A DNA stretch of 10,376 nt from Micropruina sp. (GTDB lineage: Bacteria > Actinomycetota > Actinomycetes > Propionibacteriales > Propionibacteriaceae), in NCBI GenBank assembly GCA_013693855.1, contig CP059261.1, forward strand, positions 1,393,769 to 1,404,144, read 5' to 3'. Below, piece after piece: positions 4,249-9,865 of this stretch. The number at the start of each line of letters is the position of its first letter. Positions within the stretch are counted from its first letter, which is position 1. Position numbers and translations under genes: made by a program. Under the pieces are notes generated by a model. The model made no database searches, had not been told where the DNA came from, and saw nothing but the letters and a program-made list of their open reading frames with translations.

Positions 4249-4983
4249 ATGAAGGTGGCGGTGTTCGGATCCCGGGGACGGATGGGGGCCGAGGTGATGG
4301 CGGCGATCAGCGCGTCCCCCGACTTGGAGCTGGTGGCGGCGGTCGACGCCGGGGACGATCGGGCCGCGGTGGAGGCTGCGGACGTGGTCGTCGACTTCAC
4401 CAACCCCGACGCGGTCGAGGACAACATCGGCTGGTGCCTGGAACGGGGCATCCATGCGGTCGTCGGCACGTCCGGCTTCGACGAGGCCAAGTTGGACCGG
4501 GTGCGCGCGCTCGTCGAGGCACAGCCGACGGCGAACGTGCTGGTGGCGCCCAACTTCTCGATCGGCGGGGTCCTGATGATGCGGTTCGCCGAACTGGCCG
4601 CCCCGTTCTTCGAGTCCGCGGAGGTCATCGAGTTGCACCACCCCAACAAGGTCGACGCGCCGTCAGGCACCGCGCTCAACACCGCCGAGCGGATCGCGGA
4701 GGCCAGGGCTGCGGGGGCTCGCTGAGCCCCGGACGCCACCACCTCCGACCCCGACCACGCGCGCGGTGCCGCCGTGGGCGGGGTGCACGTGCACGCCGTC
4801 CGGCAGCGCGGGCTGTTCGCCAACCAGCAGGTCCTGTTCGGCAACGAGGGCGAGGCGCTGACCATCGTCCACAACTCGTTCACCCGCGCCTCGTACATGC
4901 CGGGCGTGCTGGCCGCGGTGCGTGCCGTCGGGTCGCGCCCCGGACTCACCGTCGGCATCGACGCCATCCTCGGGCTGGACTGA
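4249..4983 (+). CDS. dapB: 4-hydroxy-tetrahydrodipicolinate reductase, interrupted by an in-frame TGA
   Basis: DapB reduces hydroxy-tetrahydrodipicolinate with NAD(P)H in the diaminopimelate/lysine pathway. The ATG at 4249 has GAGGAGG (4236-4242) at 6-nt spacing and gives the family N-terminus [13 protein letters not shown] with the dinucleotide-binding glycines. Further motifs are [33 protein letters not shown], and the catalytic [15 protein letters not shown] with H130 and K134. A TGA at 4723-4725 stops the protein after residue 158, but the same frame resumes with [33 protein letters not shown] and [20 protein letters not shown], all typical of the DapB C-terminal part. The total, 244 codons, is normal family length. 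Either one codon is mutated, or there is a base missing in GGGGG (4713-4717) and a compensating extra G after 4730; that reading gives AAGGSLSPDATT, closer to the family. The ATG at 4219 is in frame but lies outside the family N-terminus. Confidence 0.88.
4714..4730 (+). repeat. Perfect 7-bp hairpin containing the dapB internal stop
   Basis: GGGGCTC (4714-4720) and GAGCCCC (4724-4730) are perfect inverted repeats around a 3-nt loop. The interrupting TGA spans the loop/stem junction. Stable GC hairpins like this are typical places for sequencing or polymerase errors, which bears on whether the stop is real. Confidence 0.7.
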
Positions 4984-5711: not shown

Positions 5712-6752
5712 TCAGAGCGGGTTGGGCACTTCCTCGCCGGGACGGACAGGGCCGGGCGGGGTGCCGTCCCCGAACGGCCGGCCGCCGAGCGCCTCTCGTC
5801 CGTGCGGGGTGAGCCAGCCGCCCAGATCCGGCCCCTTCGGCACGATCGAGAGCGGGTTCAGGTCGGTGTGGACGACGTAGTAGTGCCGCTTGATCTGGAC
5901 GAAGTCGACGGTGTCGCCGAAGCCGGGGGTCTGGTACAGGTCGCGGGCGTAGCCCCACAGGTTCGGCAGGTCGACCAGCCGCTGCCGGTTGCACTTGAAG
6001 TGGCCGTGGTAGACGGGGTCGAACCGGACGAGCGTGGTGAACAGCCGCACGTCGGCCTCGGTGATCGATCCGCCCATCAGGAACCGCCGGGTGGCCAGGC
6101 GTTCCTCCAGCCAGTCCAGGGCGGTCCACAGCCGGTCGTGCGCGGCGTCGTAGGCCTCCTGGGTGCCGGCGAAGCCGCACTGGTAGACGCCGTTGTTGAC
6201 CTCGGTGAAGATACGCCGCATCACCTCGTCCAACTCGTCGCGGAGGTGCGCGGGGTAGAGGTCGGGGGCGCCGGGACGGTGATACGCGGTCCACTCGGTG
6301 GCGAAGTCGAGGGTGATCTGGGCGAAGTCGTTGGTGACCACCTGCCCGGTTGCGATCTCGACGATGGCCGGGACGGTGATCCCGCGCGGGTAGCCGGGGA
6401 AGCGGGCCTCGTAGGCGTCCTTGAGCCGACCGATGCCGAGCACGGGATCGATCCCGCCCGGGTCGAGGTCGAACGTCCAGGAGTCGGCGTCGTGGGTGGG
6501 GCCGGGCAGGCCGACCGAGATCGCGTCCTCCAGGCCCAGCAGGCGCCGGACGATCAGGGTGCGGTTCGCCCAGGGGCAGGCCCGGGCGGCGACGAGCCGG
6601 TAGCGGCCGGCTTCGACGGGCCACTCGTCCGGGGCGCTGGGGTGCGCGACGATCCGGTCGGTGATGTACCGGCTGTCGCGGACGTACTCCTTGCCCTTCG
6701 CGGAGTACACCCCGCCCTGGGCGTGCTCAGCGGCCTCCGGAGAATGATTCAT
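5712..6752 (-). CDS. Glutathionyl-hydroquinone reductase-like protein (xi-class GST, YqjG/ECM4 family)
   Basis: The 346-residue product has the full family length and layout: a thioredoxin-fold N-terminal half with ACPWANR (catalytic Cys59 in CPWA), the insert GLPGPTHDADSWTFD, the cis-Pro region ITVPAIVEI, then an all-helical C-terminal half with EVNNGVYQCGFAGTQEAYD, GGSITEADVRLFTTLVRFDPVY and NLWGYARDLYQTPGF. Family members reduce glutathionyl-hydroquinones. Actinobacteria mostly make mycothiol instead of glutathione, so the true thiol partner here is uncertain. The ATG at 6752 is directly behind a -10 hexamer on the minus strand. The gene converges on the DUF2993 gene with 34 nt between stops, and its upstream side abuts the first repeat array. 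Confidence 0.92.
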   Translation of the reverse strand: MNHSPEAAEHAQGGVYSAKGKEYVRDSRYITDRIVAHPSAPDEWPVEAGRYRLVAARACPWANRTLIVRRLLGLEDAISVGLPGPTHDADSWTFDLDPGGIDPVLGIGRLKDAYEARFPGYPRGITVPAIVEIATGQVVTNDFAQITLDFATEWTAYHRPGAPDLYPAHLRDELDEVMRRIFTEVNNGVYQCGFAGTQEAYDAAHDRLWTALDWLEERLATRRFLMGGSITEADVRLFTTLVRFDPVYHGHFKCNRQRLVDLPNLWGYARDLYQTPGFGDTVDFVQIKRHYYVVHTDLNPLSIVPKGPDLGGWLTPHGREALGGRPFGDGTPPGPVRPGEEVPNPL

Positions 6753-6773: not shown

Positions 6774-7200
6774 TGCGCGGTTGAGCTTGTCGACCAGGCT
6801 CCAGTGCGAGCGGAGTTCCGGTGCGGCGGTTGAACCGTCCACGGTGCGGCGGTTGAGCTTGTCGAAACCCCGCCACCGCACGCGTGGGTACCGCGGCGGT
6901 TGAGCCTGTCGAAACCCCGCCAGCACGCGTGGGCTGCTGCGGCCGTCGAGCTTGTCAACCCAGCGCCAGTGCGAGCGGGGTTGCTGCGGCGGTTGAGAGT
7001 GTCGAGACCGCGCGAGCACGCGTGGGTTGCTGCGGCGGTTGAGCCTGTCGATACCCCGCCAGCACGCGTGGGCTGCTGCGGCGGTTGAGCTTGTCGAAAC
7101 CCCGCGCCAATCCCGTGGGTTGCTGCGGCGGTTGAGCGTGTCGATACCCCGCCACCGCGCGTGGGTTGCTGCGGCGGTTGAGCCTGTCGAAACCCGCGCC
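6774..7200. repeat. Repeat array 1: about 10 tandem units of 46-47 bp
   Basis: This gene-free stretch is filled by a tandem repeat whose units begin GCGGCGGTTGAG. Unit starts are at 6774, 6823 (a 23-bp half unit), 6846, 6893, 6939, 6986, 7032, 7078, 7125 and 7171, a steady 46-47 bp spacing after the half unit. Each holds a 19-bp core such as GGTTGAGCCTGTCGAAACC, then a variable segment often ending GCGTGGGTTGCT. All cores face the same way. Cores at units 3, 4, 8 and 10 have perfect GGTT/AACC arms, and three others (6, 7 and 9) differ at one arm position. Reading frames crossing it are low-complexity artefacts. It lies downstream of the GNAT gene and upstream of the GST gene. Confidence 0.9.
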
Positions 7201-7213
7201 GCGGCGAAGGGAC

Positions 7214-7756
7214 TCAGGCCGTGCTGATGTCGGTGTGCAGCCGGATGAGCTTGACCCGGGCGTGGTCGTCCTCGGTGCCGATCTCGCGGTGGGCGCCGTC
7301 CGGCGCCCACCCGGCCCCGGTGACGAACGTCCGCAGGTCGTCGTCGGTGGAGCGCACCCACCACGTCGCACGGACGAAGCCGTCGGCGCGGAACGTGTCG
7401 ACGCAGGCGTTCAGCAGCCGGGACCCGTGGCCCTGGCCGCGGGCGGCCGGATCGACCACGAACTCGGCGACCAGGGCGTCCTCGCCACCGGCGGCGTCGG
7501 GATCGTCACTGGGCCCGATCGCGGCGAAGCCGACGACCCGTCCGGTGCCCGCGACGGCGACCAGGACCCGGAACTGGGCCAGCGGCGGTCGGAGGATCGC
7601 GCGCTCCCATGCCTCGGTCATGGCGGCCAAGTCGACCTCACCCAGCAGGGCGGTGGTCAGTTCGTCCGATGGCGTGGACGACCAGGCGCGGCGCTGCAAC
7701 GCGGCGATCTGCCCGGCCTCGGCGGGCAGGGCCAAACGGACGGAGTCGGCGATCAC
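7214..7756 (-). CDS. GNAT family N-acetyltransferase
   Basis: This 180-residue single-domain protein of the Gcn5-related N-acetyltransferase fold transfers an acetyl group from acetyl-CoA to an amine. The acetyl-CoA binding motif is AEFVVDPAARGQGHGSRLL (pyrophosphate loop RGQGHG at 106-111). Before it are the strands FRVLVAVAG and RVVGFAAIG, and after it GFVRATWWVRSTDDDLRTFVTGAGW, which fits motif B. The substrate is unknown. The GTG at 7756 was chosen because the family N-terminus (DSVRLALPAEAGQIAALQRRAW) begins there and a TACCAT hexamer lies 6 nt upstream. The open frame extends to 8284, but that extension is only translated repeat DNA. The gene is flanked on both sides by the repeat arrays. 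Confidence 0.87.
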   Translation of the reverse strand: MIADSVRLALPAEAGQIAALQRRAWSSTPSDELTTALLGEVDLAAMTEAWERAILRPPLAQFRVLVAVAGTGRVVGFAAIGPSDDPDAAGGEDALVAEFVVDPAARGQGHGSRLLNACVDTFRADGFVRATWWVRSTDDDLRTFVTGAGWAPDGAHREIGTEDDHARVKLIRLHTDISTA

Positions 7757-7762
7757 CGCGTC

Positions 7763-7768
7763 ATGGTA
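7763..7768 (-). promoter_or_regulatory. -10 hexamer TACCAT for the GNAT gene
   Basis: On the minus strand TACCAT is followed by 6 nt and then the GTG start at 7756, the same geometry as the GST and PrsW genes in this window. There is no Shine-Dalgarno sequence. The repeat array begins about 50 nt further upstream. Confidence 0.45.
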
Positions 7769-7820
7769 ACCGGCGAGTTGATGCGTATCCCCGGCCGCCG
7801 AGACCCCGGACGAACCCGGA

Positions 7821-8730
7821 GGTCGAGCGTTGTCGAGACCTGGCCAGCCCCGGCGGTCGAGCGTGTCGAGACCTGGTCGTCTTCGGCGGTCGAGCTTGTC
7901 GAGACCCCGGAGCGGAACCTGACGGTGCGGGATGTCGAACAGGCTCAATCGGCGCACGTCGCCGTGCCGGGTGCGGGATTGCGACAGGCTCAATCGCCGC
8001 ACGTCTCCGGGGTCTAGCGGGTCGAGACCTGGCCAACTCCGGCGGTCGAGCGTGTCGAGACCTGGTCGTCTCCGGCGGTCGAGCGTGTCGAGACCTGGTC
8101 GTCTCCGGCGGTCGAGCTTGTCGAGACCCCGGAGCGGAACCTGGACAGTGCGGGATGTCGACGGGCTCAATCGCCGCAGGTTCTTCGGCGGTCGAGCGTG
8201 TTGAGACCTGGTCGTCTCCGGCGGTCGAGCGTGTCGAGACCCCGGAGTGGAACCTTGGCTTGTGCGGGATGTCGACGGGCTCAATCGCCGCAGGTTCTTC
8301 GGCGGTCGAGCGTGTTGAGACCTGGTCGTCTCCGGCGGTCGAGCGTGTACCTTGGCTTGTGCGGGATGTCGACAGGCTCAATCGCCGCACGTTCTCCGGC
8401 GGTCGAGCGTGTCGAGACCCCGGAGCGGAACCTGGCCTGTGCGGGATGTCGACAAGCTCAATCGGCGCACGTCGCCGTGCCGGGTGCGGGATTTCGACAG
8501 GCTCAATCGCCGCACACTGCCCTGTCCGGGTGCGGGATTTCGACAGGCTCAATCGCCGCACACTGCCCTGTCCGGGTGCGGGATTTCGACAGGCTCAATC
8601 GCCGCACGTTCTCCGGCGGTCGAGCGTGTCGAGACCCCGGAGCGGAACCTGGACGGTGCGGGATTTCGACAAGCTCACGCCGCACGCCCCCTGCCCGGGC
8701 GAGGGATGTCGACAGGCTCATCGCCGCACC
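7821..8730. repeat. Repeat array 2: mosaic of 13 forward and 11 reverse cores
   Basis: About 0.9 kb without genes holds two families of the same core in opposite orientation. Forward cores, e.g. GGTCGAGCGTGTCGAGACC, begin at 7821, 7855, 7888, 8011, 8044, 8077, 8110, 8190, 8223, 8304, 8337 (truncated), 8401 and 8618; where tandem they repeat every 33 bp. Reverse cores (GATTTCGACAGGCTCAATC or GATGTCGAC variants) begin at 7931, 7977, 8154, 8268, 8365, 8445, 8490, 8536, 8582, 8662 and 8705; where tandem they repeat every 45-46 bp. Forward and reverse cores are often joined by CCCCGGAGCGGAACCTGG, giving imperfect long hairpins. The layout resembles REP/BIME mosaics. It sits between the divergent GNAT and PrsW promoters. 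Confidence 0.9.
8154..8348. repeat. Recent 114-bp direct duplication inside array 2
   Basis: The block from 8154 to about 8234 recurs at 8268-8348 with no difference I can see, a 114-bp offset. Just after it, the second copy lacks 17 nt (equivalent to 8235-8251) and rejoins at ACCTTGGCTTGTGCGGG. This points to a recent duplication followed by a small deletion that removed half of one forward core. Confidence 0.75.
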
Positions 8731-8774: not shown

Positions 8775-8845
8775 GTGCCGGTGACCACCCTCGTCCCTGG
8801 CCGGCTCGCCGGCTCCCGCGCGGGCTGTTCGTCCGCAAAGTGGGG

Positions 8846-9865
8846 ATGCCGCTGGCGATCCTGATCCTGCTCGCGATCGTGGCAGCCCTGCTGACCGCGC
8901 TCCCGGCGGTGTTGGGGCCGCGGATGTTCACGCTCGCCGTGGTGCCCACGACGGCGGCGTTCGCGCTGGGCACGGCCGCCCTGCTGTGGCTCGACCGCTG
9001 GGAGCCCGAGCCGCGCCGCCTGCTGGTCTTCGCCGCCCTGTGGGGCGCCTCGGTCGCGGTGCTGCTGGCGCTCGCCCTCGAAGTCGCGTTCGCCAGCCAC
9101 GACGTGATCGAAACTGCGGTGGCCGCGCCCGTGTTCGAGGAGTTCGCGAAAGGCACCCTGCTGATCGTCATGGTCACCGGACGACGCGGCCGGGAGATGT
9201 CGACGCTGGTCGATCACCGGGTCTACGCGGGGCTCTGTGGGCTGGGCTTCGCCTACTCGGAGAACCTGATGTACCTGTCCGGGGCGAGCGACCTGGGCGA
9301 CCTGTGGCAGATGATCGTGGTCCGGCTGGGCCTGAAGGTGTGGGGCCACCCGCTGTATGCGATGGTGCTGGCGCTCGGGGTCTACCTGGCTCGTCAGCCG
9401 GGGCCGTGGTGGAGCCGGATTCTGGCCATCCCGGCAGGCTTCGTCGGTGCCACGACACTGCACGGGATCTGGAACGGGTCGGTGTTCTTCCACCTGTGGG
9501 TCACCGTGGCGGTTTACCTCGGGGCTCTGCTGCCGGCCCTCGGGCTGCTGGTGTGGAGCGGGGTGCAGCAGCGCCGGCGCGAGGGCGTCCTGGTGGCCGG
9601 CGAACTGCCCCGCCTGGTCGCTGCGGGCTACCTCGGTCCCGCGCTGGCAGGCACGTTGGCGGCACTCCCCGTCCGGCGGAGCGTGCTGGGCGGACTGCCG
9701 AAAGCGGTCCAGCCGGCGTACCGGGAACTCGCGGACGCCGTCGCCGAACTCGCCTTCCTCAACGAGCGCATCGAGCAGGTCGGGACGGACCCGCGGCTCG
9801 CCGGTCTCCGCCAGGAACTGCTGGCTCGCATCGGGACCGCCCGGACCGTCCTGCCGCCCGGCTGA
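8846..9865 (+). CDS. PrsW-family intramembrane metalloprotease
   Basis: PrsW proteins are multi-spanning membrane proteases; Bacillus PrsW makes the first cut in the anti-sigma factor RsiW. This 339-residue product has several hydrophobic spans and the family motifs in order: LDRWEPEP (50-56), the EExxK site in APVFEEFAKG (E98, E99, K102), GLGFAYSEN (132-140), H168 in WGHPLYAM and H206 in LHGIWN. A soluble C-terminal tail (about 240-339) contains a helical segment QPAYRELADAVAELAFL. The start is uncertain. ATG 8846 (or GTG 8840) is the first sensible start in the intact frame, but the upstream -10 points to GTG 8781 with a one-base frameshift at 8822-8824. The open frame reaches back to 8198, but that is repeat DNA. 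Its substrate is unknown; the sigma partner encoded at 3340-4178 is a possible but unproven candidate. Confidence 0.88.
   Translation: MPLAILILLAIVAALLTALPAVLGPRMFTLAVVPTTAAFALGTAALLWLDRWEPEPRRLLVFAALWGASVAVLLALALEVAFASHDVIETAVAAPVFEEFAKGTLLIVMVTGRRGREMSTLVDHRVYAGLCGLGFAYSENLMYLSGASDLGDLWQMIVVRLGLKVWGHPLYAMVLALGVYLARQPGPWWSRILAIPAGFVGATTLHGIWNGSVFFHLWVTVAVYLGALLPALGLLVWSGVQQRRREGVLVAGELPRLVAAGYLGPALAGTLAALPVRRSVLGGLPKAVQPAYRELADAVAELAFLNERIEQVGTDPRLAGLRQELLARIGTARTVLPPG

Follow-up and report, generated by a model that had tools for sequence, protein, structure and literature searches.

A probable REP/BIME-like hairpin repeat with covarying stems and a nearly frozen loop in Micropruina sp. and in distant bacteria

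A 10,376-nucleotide stretch of the Micropruina sp. genome (contig CP059261.1, positions 1,393,769 to 1,404,144; the window, in whose coordinates positions are given here) contains two arrays of a short repeat with the features of a hairpin. The original prediction, made from the letters of this stretch, described a 19-bp core in three variants whose outer four bases on each side always change as a pair. About 30 copies of the core are present across array 1 and array 2; a consensus scan of the window gives 28 cores at three or fewer mismatches, as against a mean of 0.16 (maximum 1) in 50 dinucleotide shuffles, and the repeat with its three variants stands as described. Array 1 (6779..7194, forward strand) has nine same-direction copies with arms GGTT/AACC, spaced mostly 46–47 bp apart. 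Array 2 has 13 forward cores with arms GGTC/GACC (7821..8641, forward strand), interleaved with reverse copies with arms GATT/AATC (7925..8725, reverse strand). The start of a gene with glutathione S-transferase domains (5712..6752, reverse strand) opens the intergenic slot of array 1, a GNAT-family acetyltransferase gene (7214..7756, reverse strand) lies between the two arrays, and a PrsW-family membrane protease gene (8798..9865, forward strand; one supporting match falls below the model cut-off) adjoins array 2.

The predicted counts of perfect and mismatched arms hold copy by copy against the sequence. In array 1 the arms are perfect in the copies at 6851, 6898, 7083 and 7176; those at 6991, 7037 and 7130 have one mismatch, and those at 6779 and 6944 are broken. 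The forward copies of array 2 have perfect arms in 12 of 13 cases, the exception being a truncated copy at 8337; the copy at 7821, which has one additional loop base as read by eye, is counted among the perfect ones. The reverse copies are perfect at 7977, 8490, 8536 and 8582, have one arm mismatch at 7931, 8154, 8268, 8365 and 8445, and are worse at 8662 and 8705.

The dyad was predicted to consist of 4-bp arms; these do pair, but they are only the inner part of a longer hairpin, whose stem of 8–10 bp has a single bulged C on its 5′ side and closes an 11-nt loop, GAGCNTGTCGA. The extended stems are GCGG[C]GGTT/AACCCCGC in array 1 (example 7078-7105), TCCGG[C]GGTC/GACCCCGGA in the forward copies of array 2 (example 8612-8641), and GTGCGG[C]GATT/AATCCCGCAC in the reverse copies (example 8484-8515). 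Each copy comprises a short foot on the 5′ side, a stem constrained to pair but free in its letters, and a nearly frozen loop, and the consensus around the loop is YY-GAGC-NTG-TCGA-RR. The extended hairpins are the minimum-energy folds with both DNA and RNA parameters in ViennaRNA; folded as DNA, the forward variant additionally pairs some of its loop.

The loop was counted throughout the 3.67 Mb host genome (G000; its congeners are G001-G005), and 688 copies are present, divided 339 and 349 between the two strands; a reversed-loop control gives 36 (16 and 20). Two samples of the host were examined, one of 20 evenly spaced 20-kb stretches together with the window, and a second directed at known repeat clusters. 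The evenly spaced sample with the window contains 116 exact-loop copies, of which 87 have four perfect arm pairs, compared with none of three for the reversed-loop control. With genes placed by a codon-usage gene call, which assigns 82% of the sampled sequence to coding regions, 101 of the 106 copies that have three or more arm pairs lie between genes. Gaps between divergent genes hold 30 of 98 placeable copies and 28% of intergenic bases, a proportional share with no avoidance. Relative to co-directional neighbouring genes, 31 copies lie in the same direction and 18 in the opposite one, a weak comparison since copies cluster.

Covariation of the arms was scored on unfiltered, distinct rows, 102 from the host and 138 over all lineages, against 2000 shuffles. 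In the host, the pairs −1/+1 (25 both-sided changed cells), −3/+3 (7 cells) and, in the bulge register, −9/+8 (16 cells) covary, and none of the 2000 shuffles reaches the score of any of them. The −1/+1 pair is C-G or T-A and the −3/+3 pair is G-C or A-T, whereas positions −2 and −4 are nearly invariant and −2/+2 and −4/+4 carry little information, so that in the host only two of the four arm positions, −1/+1 and −3/+3, change in step. Over all lineages, positions 1 to 4 each show 31–42 both-sided changes, with scores again reached by 0 of 2000 shuffles. Independent variation of the arms, which would have refuted the original prediction, was not seen at the positions that vary. Its central proposal, conservation of the dyad as such, is supported both genome-wide and across lineages.

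The stems that pair perfectly over 4 bp are of 15 kinds: GGTC, GGTT, GATT, GATC, CCCT, CGTT, CCTT, CGCT, CCCC, GACC, GGCT, TCCT, TGCT, CACT and CCGG. Two pyrimidines precede the loop in 14 of the 15, and CCGG, the sole stem that lacks them, could be a random hit. When the frame is widened to GAGC-NNN-TCGA, 284 of 287 perfect hairpins, pooled over the groups compared, have a pyrimidine-purine closing pair. A Watson-Crick stem with the frame Y-GAG...CGA-R fits a known motif, the hairpin capped by tandem sheared G·A pairs, as far as the frame of letters can tell, and the shared Y-GAGC...TCGA-R frame suggests a cap built from two sheared G·A pairs and one G-C pair, on which the apical loop can be exchanged.

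Expansion of the loop is patchy, with huge numbers in some species and counts near the control in close relatives. Two congeners have 602 and 383 copies and the three others 48–56 (controls 34–41). Among other relatives, G021 has 661, G020, G022, G024 and G028 have 190–207, and G084 has 201; in most of the remainder the loop count is within a few-fold of its own control. A narrower pattern sought in 396 genomes of the phylum places the host first with 640 and the next genome at 134. The stretches from G453, G146 and G343 hold few copies and were left out of the counts, and 80 named actinobacterial loci (991,553 bases) contain five exact-loop matches, none with four arm pairs.

A plasmid BLAST search, for which a sphingomonad form of the hairpin served as query, matched 33 records, including Alpha-, Beta- and Gammaproteobacteria and Bacteroidota. 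Loop and control counts in eleven of them are 35/3, 18/11, 2/0, 7/0, 50/20, 57/10, 1/2, 6/3, 1/1, 36/11 and 43/17; enrichment is strong in sphingomonads and Comamonas endophytica and modest or absent in the others, and some loop matches lie plainly within genes. Proteobacterial copies commonly take the form CCGTTC-GNNCT-loop-AGNNC and frequently stand as inverted pairs whose feet point outward. Plasmid copies in other phyla have the identical loop and other stems, which are still paired. In Hymenobacter plasmids (L191:10011; L303-L305:590-720), exact or one-base-different loops occur as inverted pairs with a common ATGCT stem and feet CGTC, TGTC, GGTC or CATC, and L191 couples an 11-nt with a 12-nt loop.

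Neighbouring copies follow a rule that depends on their orientation. Among copies whose loop has one mismatch at most and which have three or more arm pairs, sampled in Actinobacteria and Proteobacteria, direct neighbours less than 150 bp apart share the same 4-nt stem in 186 of 225 pairs and inverted neighbours in 2 of 119 (2 of 118 once a Sphingobium dimer counted twice, in the overlapping L189 and L220, is corrected; it was removed from the array test). Arrays with two orientations have an identical majority stem in 1 of 54 cases, against an expectation of 15.9 and with no value so low in 100,000 shuffles, and 52 of the 54 have no stem common to both orientations. The arrays fall into 29 genome-by-combination classes, one of them same-stem. 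Because the stem combinations vary between arrays, the hetero-stem rule does not derive from one founder dimer, although some classes, such as nine Sphingobium dimers, may each have a single founder. Heterodimers also prevail in most families of CGTC-type repetitive extragenic palindromes (REPs), with 'no obvious explanation' according to the text of PMC3733652, in which Di Nocera et al. propose that heterodimers escape SbcCD-type clearance; the rule found here fits that idea.

Sphingobium plasmids provide the same sites in several strains, with 5 of 11, 8 of 14 and 6 of 14 matching records aligned at a sister-element site, a flip site and a third site, respectively. All eight strains aligned at the flip site have a dimer, in the order CCCT then GGCT in five and GGCT then CCCT in three, with feet and loops essentially unchanged between the two states; all four arms were thus switched together, through inversion or re-insertion, rather than one after another by compensating mutations. 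At the sister-element site, two of five strains have the 11-nt-loop element and three have a sister element with the identical CCGTTCG foot and 12-nt loops of the form GAGC-GNAR-TCGA, GAGCGNARTCGA (L284:430-590, L285, L286). The 12-nt sister loop shows no expansion in 96 genomes. The third site shows single, dimer and half-swapped states among six strains. For the terminal inverted repeats with target-site duplication of a miniature inverted-repeat transposable element, the Sphingobium sites offer no clean empty site.

The original prediction suggested a linked RAYT/TnpA-REP transposase, and the searches did not support this. A Y1 transposase (PF01797) is found neither in the host genome nor in G004, G020, G021, G022, G024 and G028, all of which are repeat-rich. 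The same search is positive in 5 of 14 control genomes and in 6 of 96 actinobacterial genomes, without visible relation to repeat number; one gene is in G003, which lacks the repeats, and one in G005, which has them. The exact loop occurs within approximately 1.5 kb of none of the 12 Y1 loci examined from 21 actinobacterial matches, and tblastn with Y1 over plasmids matched 26 records. A reverse transcriptase (RVT_1) was considered as mobiliser and rejected, as it does not track repeat number in 57 genomes: it is present in G000, G022, G024 and G028 and not in G004, G005, G020 and G021. The host has two reverse-transcriptase genes about 5 kb apart (G000:C1:2618737-2624451).

Comparison with described systems shows a repeat that is REP-like in its working. 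The general features of REPs and of bacterial interspersed mosaic elements (BIMEs) are all present, namely a palindromic repeat of 20–40 bp in high copy number outside genes, with inverted dimers or arrays of mixed stem types. GTAG REPs and BIMEs of E. coli and Pseudomonas share the foot and hairpin, the high copy number, mosaics of REP types (y-z1, y-z2) and, in E. coli, a bulged stem, as described in PMC8266576 and PMC6006769. They differ in that the host has no GTAG/GTGG foot and no Y1 gene, and in that the loop goes unread in E. coli and is the fixed part here; foot logos drawn for each genome from copies with at least three arm pairs show no unpaired GTAG or GTGG 5′ foot, and no Y1 gene bracketed by repeats was found in the actinobacteria. 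CGTC REPs are, in the account of PMC3733652, likewise short extragenic hairpins found in several phyla, mostly as inverted dimers and commonly heterodimers, for which that text reports no dedicated transposase. They are there given stems of 8–9 bp, loops of 4–5 nt and mostly a CCA tail, unlike the 11-nt nearly invariant loop, 4–10 bp stem, CGGC host foot and frequent tandem arrays of the present repeat, in whose logos no CCA tail appears. The CGTC/TGTC/CCTC tag with an AT-first stem is missing in the host; it is seen in Hymenobacter L304 and L305, which with a CGTC foot, an AT-first stem and a loop one base different form a bridge to that family, while L191 combines an exact loop and a GGTC foot. 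The repeat is not a member of the GTAG family and lies outside the published description of the CGTC family.

The dispersing unit of REPINs (REP doublets forming hairpins) is two inverted REPs with similar partners, moved by a RAYT; the inverted two-hairpin unit is alike, and the repeat described here differs in that its partners have different stems and a RAYT was not found. Rfam has no family at its gathering threshold, the only matches being two sub-threshold ones to mir-484. Among the papers listed for the loop or for actinobacterial REPs, judged by titles and the starts of abstracts and with figures unsearchable, none describing the repeat was recognised.

A CGTC-REP-type palindrome was also encountered in the congeners. 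The distance between the starts of the GNAT and RNase J genes is approximately 80–140 bp in G002, G004 and G005, in which the PrsW gene is absent from this slot, and approximately 540 bp in G001; in the host it is 2.2 kb, with array 2 and the PrsW gene in between. The gap between the GNAT and glutathione S-transferase genes is about 20 bp in G001. In G001 and G004 (L148:2370-2925; L151:9230-9460), one of these gaps contains the palindrome CGTCATCCCGG...CCGGGAT, a pattern that occurs 66–524 times in all five congeners, not at all in the host and 0–1 times in the others of 57 genomes. The main text of the CGTC survey (PMC3733652) does not contain the word 'Actinobacteria' and names M. tuberculosis solely for untagged REP-like sequences; CGTC-type REPs are abundant in this actinobacterial genus. 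Elsewhere in the window, the dapB frame is split, with 4249-4725 matching the DapB N-terminus and the first part of the C-terminal domain, and 4774-4983 matching the remainder; this is a sequencing error or a pseudogene, in a genome scored 80% complete.

We consider it probable that the two arrays are made up of a mobile REP/BIME-like hairpin that lies outside genes, acts as single-stranded DNA and is kept for its foldback and its loop. During a single-stranded stage, in replication or transcription, each copy would fold into the hairpin, whose loop would be structured by tandem sheared G·A pairs and by a G-C pair beneath a small apical loop. Some enzyme or host factor would then recognise the cap and foot and copy or move the element, the moving unit being mostly two hairpins. 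As the pairing would be read and the stem letters would not, stems could drift by compensating steps or be swapped when a dimer flips; identical inverted stems would make one long palindrome and tend to be lost, leaving dimers with two different stems to survive. The host arrays would subsequently have been enlarged by local tandem duplication.

Four other explanations can be set against this. Covariation could arise without selection on structure if the copies came from a small number of expanded founders, their arms being held complementary by template switching or gene conversion from arm to arm and from one dimer half to the other, and inside the window this objection has force: each variant there is largely one local expansion, so that about three events are represented, and direct neighbours mostly share stems. 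The dimer flip, which alters four arms at once, and the half-swapped arm of one Sphingobium copy show that some compensatory changes are not serial point mutations. Across lineages the objection fails, as it leaves unexplained a loop frozen across phyla, the two-pyrimidine rule, and the many unrelated and still-paired stems within each lineage, and as a full account of the repeat we regard it as unlikely. Hairpins acting in transcripts, through 3′ end protection, termination or attenuation, were among the roles proposed in the original prediction; they are possible in that RNA folds into the same hairpin with greater stability (−9.8 to −14 kcal/mol), and in that 6 of 9 annotated plasmid sites lie between convergent genes. 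This role is not favoured, and seems to us rather improbable, because the copies occur in both orientations with equal strand use genome-wide, occupy divergent gaps in the host in proportion, and are set 31 to 18 in clustered arrays relative to co-directional genes; Rfam also has no family at threshold.

A classical REP moved by a Y1 transposase whose gene was lost from the host or missed would account for the foot, hairpin, inverted dimers and arrays. It could call on the Y1 gene of G005 and on PMC6006769, whose text reports REPs persisting without a tnpA-REP gene, with gene loss suspected, and TnpA classes 2.6 and 3 flanked by atypical hairpins that lack a GT[AG]G foot. Seven repeat-rich genomes including the host have no Y1 gene, however, G003 has one without repeats, and neither the neighbourhood of the Y1 loci nor the foot fits. 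E. coli TnpA-REP showed no loop preference by systematic evolution of ligands by exponential enrichment, though the Stenotrophomonas and Marinomonas enzymes (two group-3 systems) do read some loop bases, as PMC8266576 describes them. A Y1 enzyme that reads the loop is conceivable, though none was found, and a Y1 origin overall appears a poor prospect. A palindrome bound as double-stranded DNA by a dimeric protein, also among the roles proposed, agrees with arms symmetric about a centre; yet it is the symmetric part, the would-be half-sites, that varies and the non-palindromic 11-nt centre that is fixed, which makes this reading very improbable.

Several observations weigh against a mobile single-stranded hairpin. 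The covariation shuffles take no account of kinship among copies, and among the five outer pairs in the bulge register covariation is significant at −9/+8 alone. Fold energies of four window hairpins are just modestly below those of shuffles (z −1.1 to −2.8), and 3 to 28 of 200 shuffles fold equally well; folding energy is insufficient alone as proof of the hairpin, and covariation is the stronger evidence. The sheared G·A cap is a proposal read from sequence, and the foot is CGGC in the host and CGYT, CGTTC or CGTC elsewhere. Searches of the Y1 and reverse-transcriptase families, and of no other enzyme families, found no mobilising enzyme. Four plasmid queries (Novosphingobium, which matched its own record alone, and three Sphingobium sites) caught no clean insertion with target duplication, and the Sphingobium strains that lack the element at one site have the sister element there. 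The convergent setting of the annotated plasmid sites is compatible with an RNA role too. Four Hymenobacter dimers, which lie outside the neighbour and array counts and were read by eye, break the hetero-stem rule with their common stem; two of them are also nearly alike in loop and two differ.

More broadly, and as a tentative possibility, the repeat may represent a third large trans-phylum class of REP-like elements, defined by the cap YGAGC-(NTG or GNAR)-TCGAR and recognised in single-stranded DNA by machinery other than Y1, with stem changes driven by foldability and by the need for partners not to merge. No Y1 transposase was found in seven of the eight family members richest in repeats among those examined (the exception being G005), which points to some other mobiliser or to a host factor. 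The heterodimer excess for which Di Nocera et al. saw no obvious explanation becomes a sharp, testable rule for the GAGCNTGTCGA-loop family, and comparison here reveals which part of a dispersed DNA repeat is constrained: the loop and the foldback are fixed, and the letters of the stem are free.

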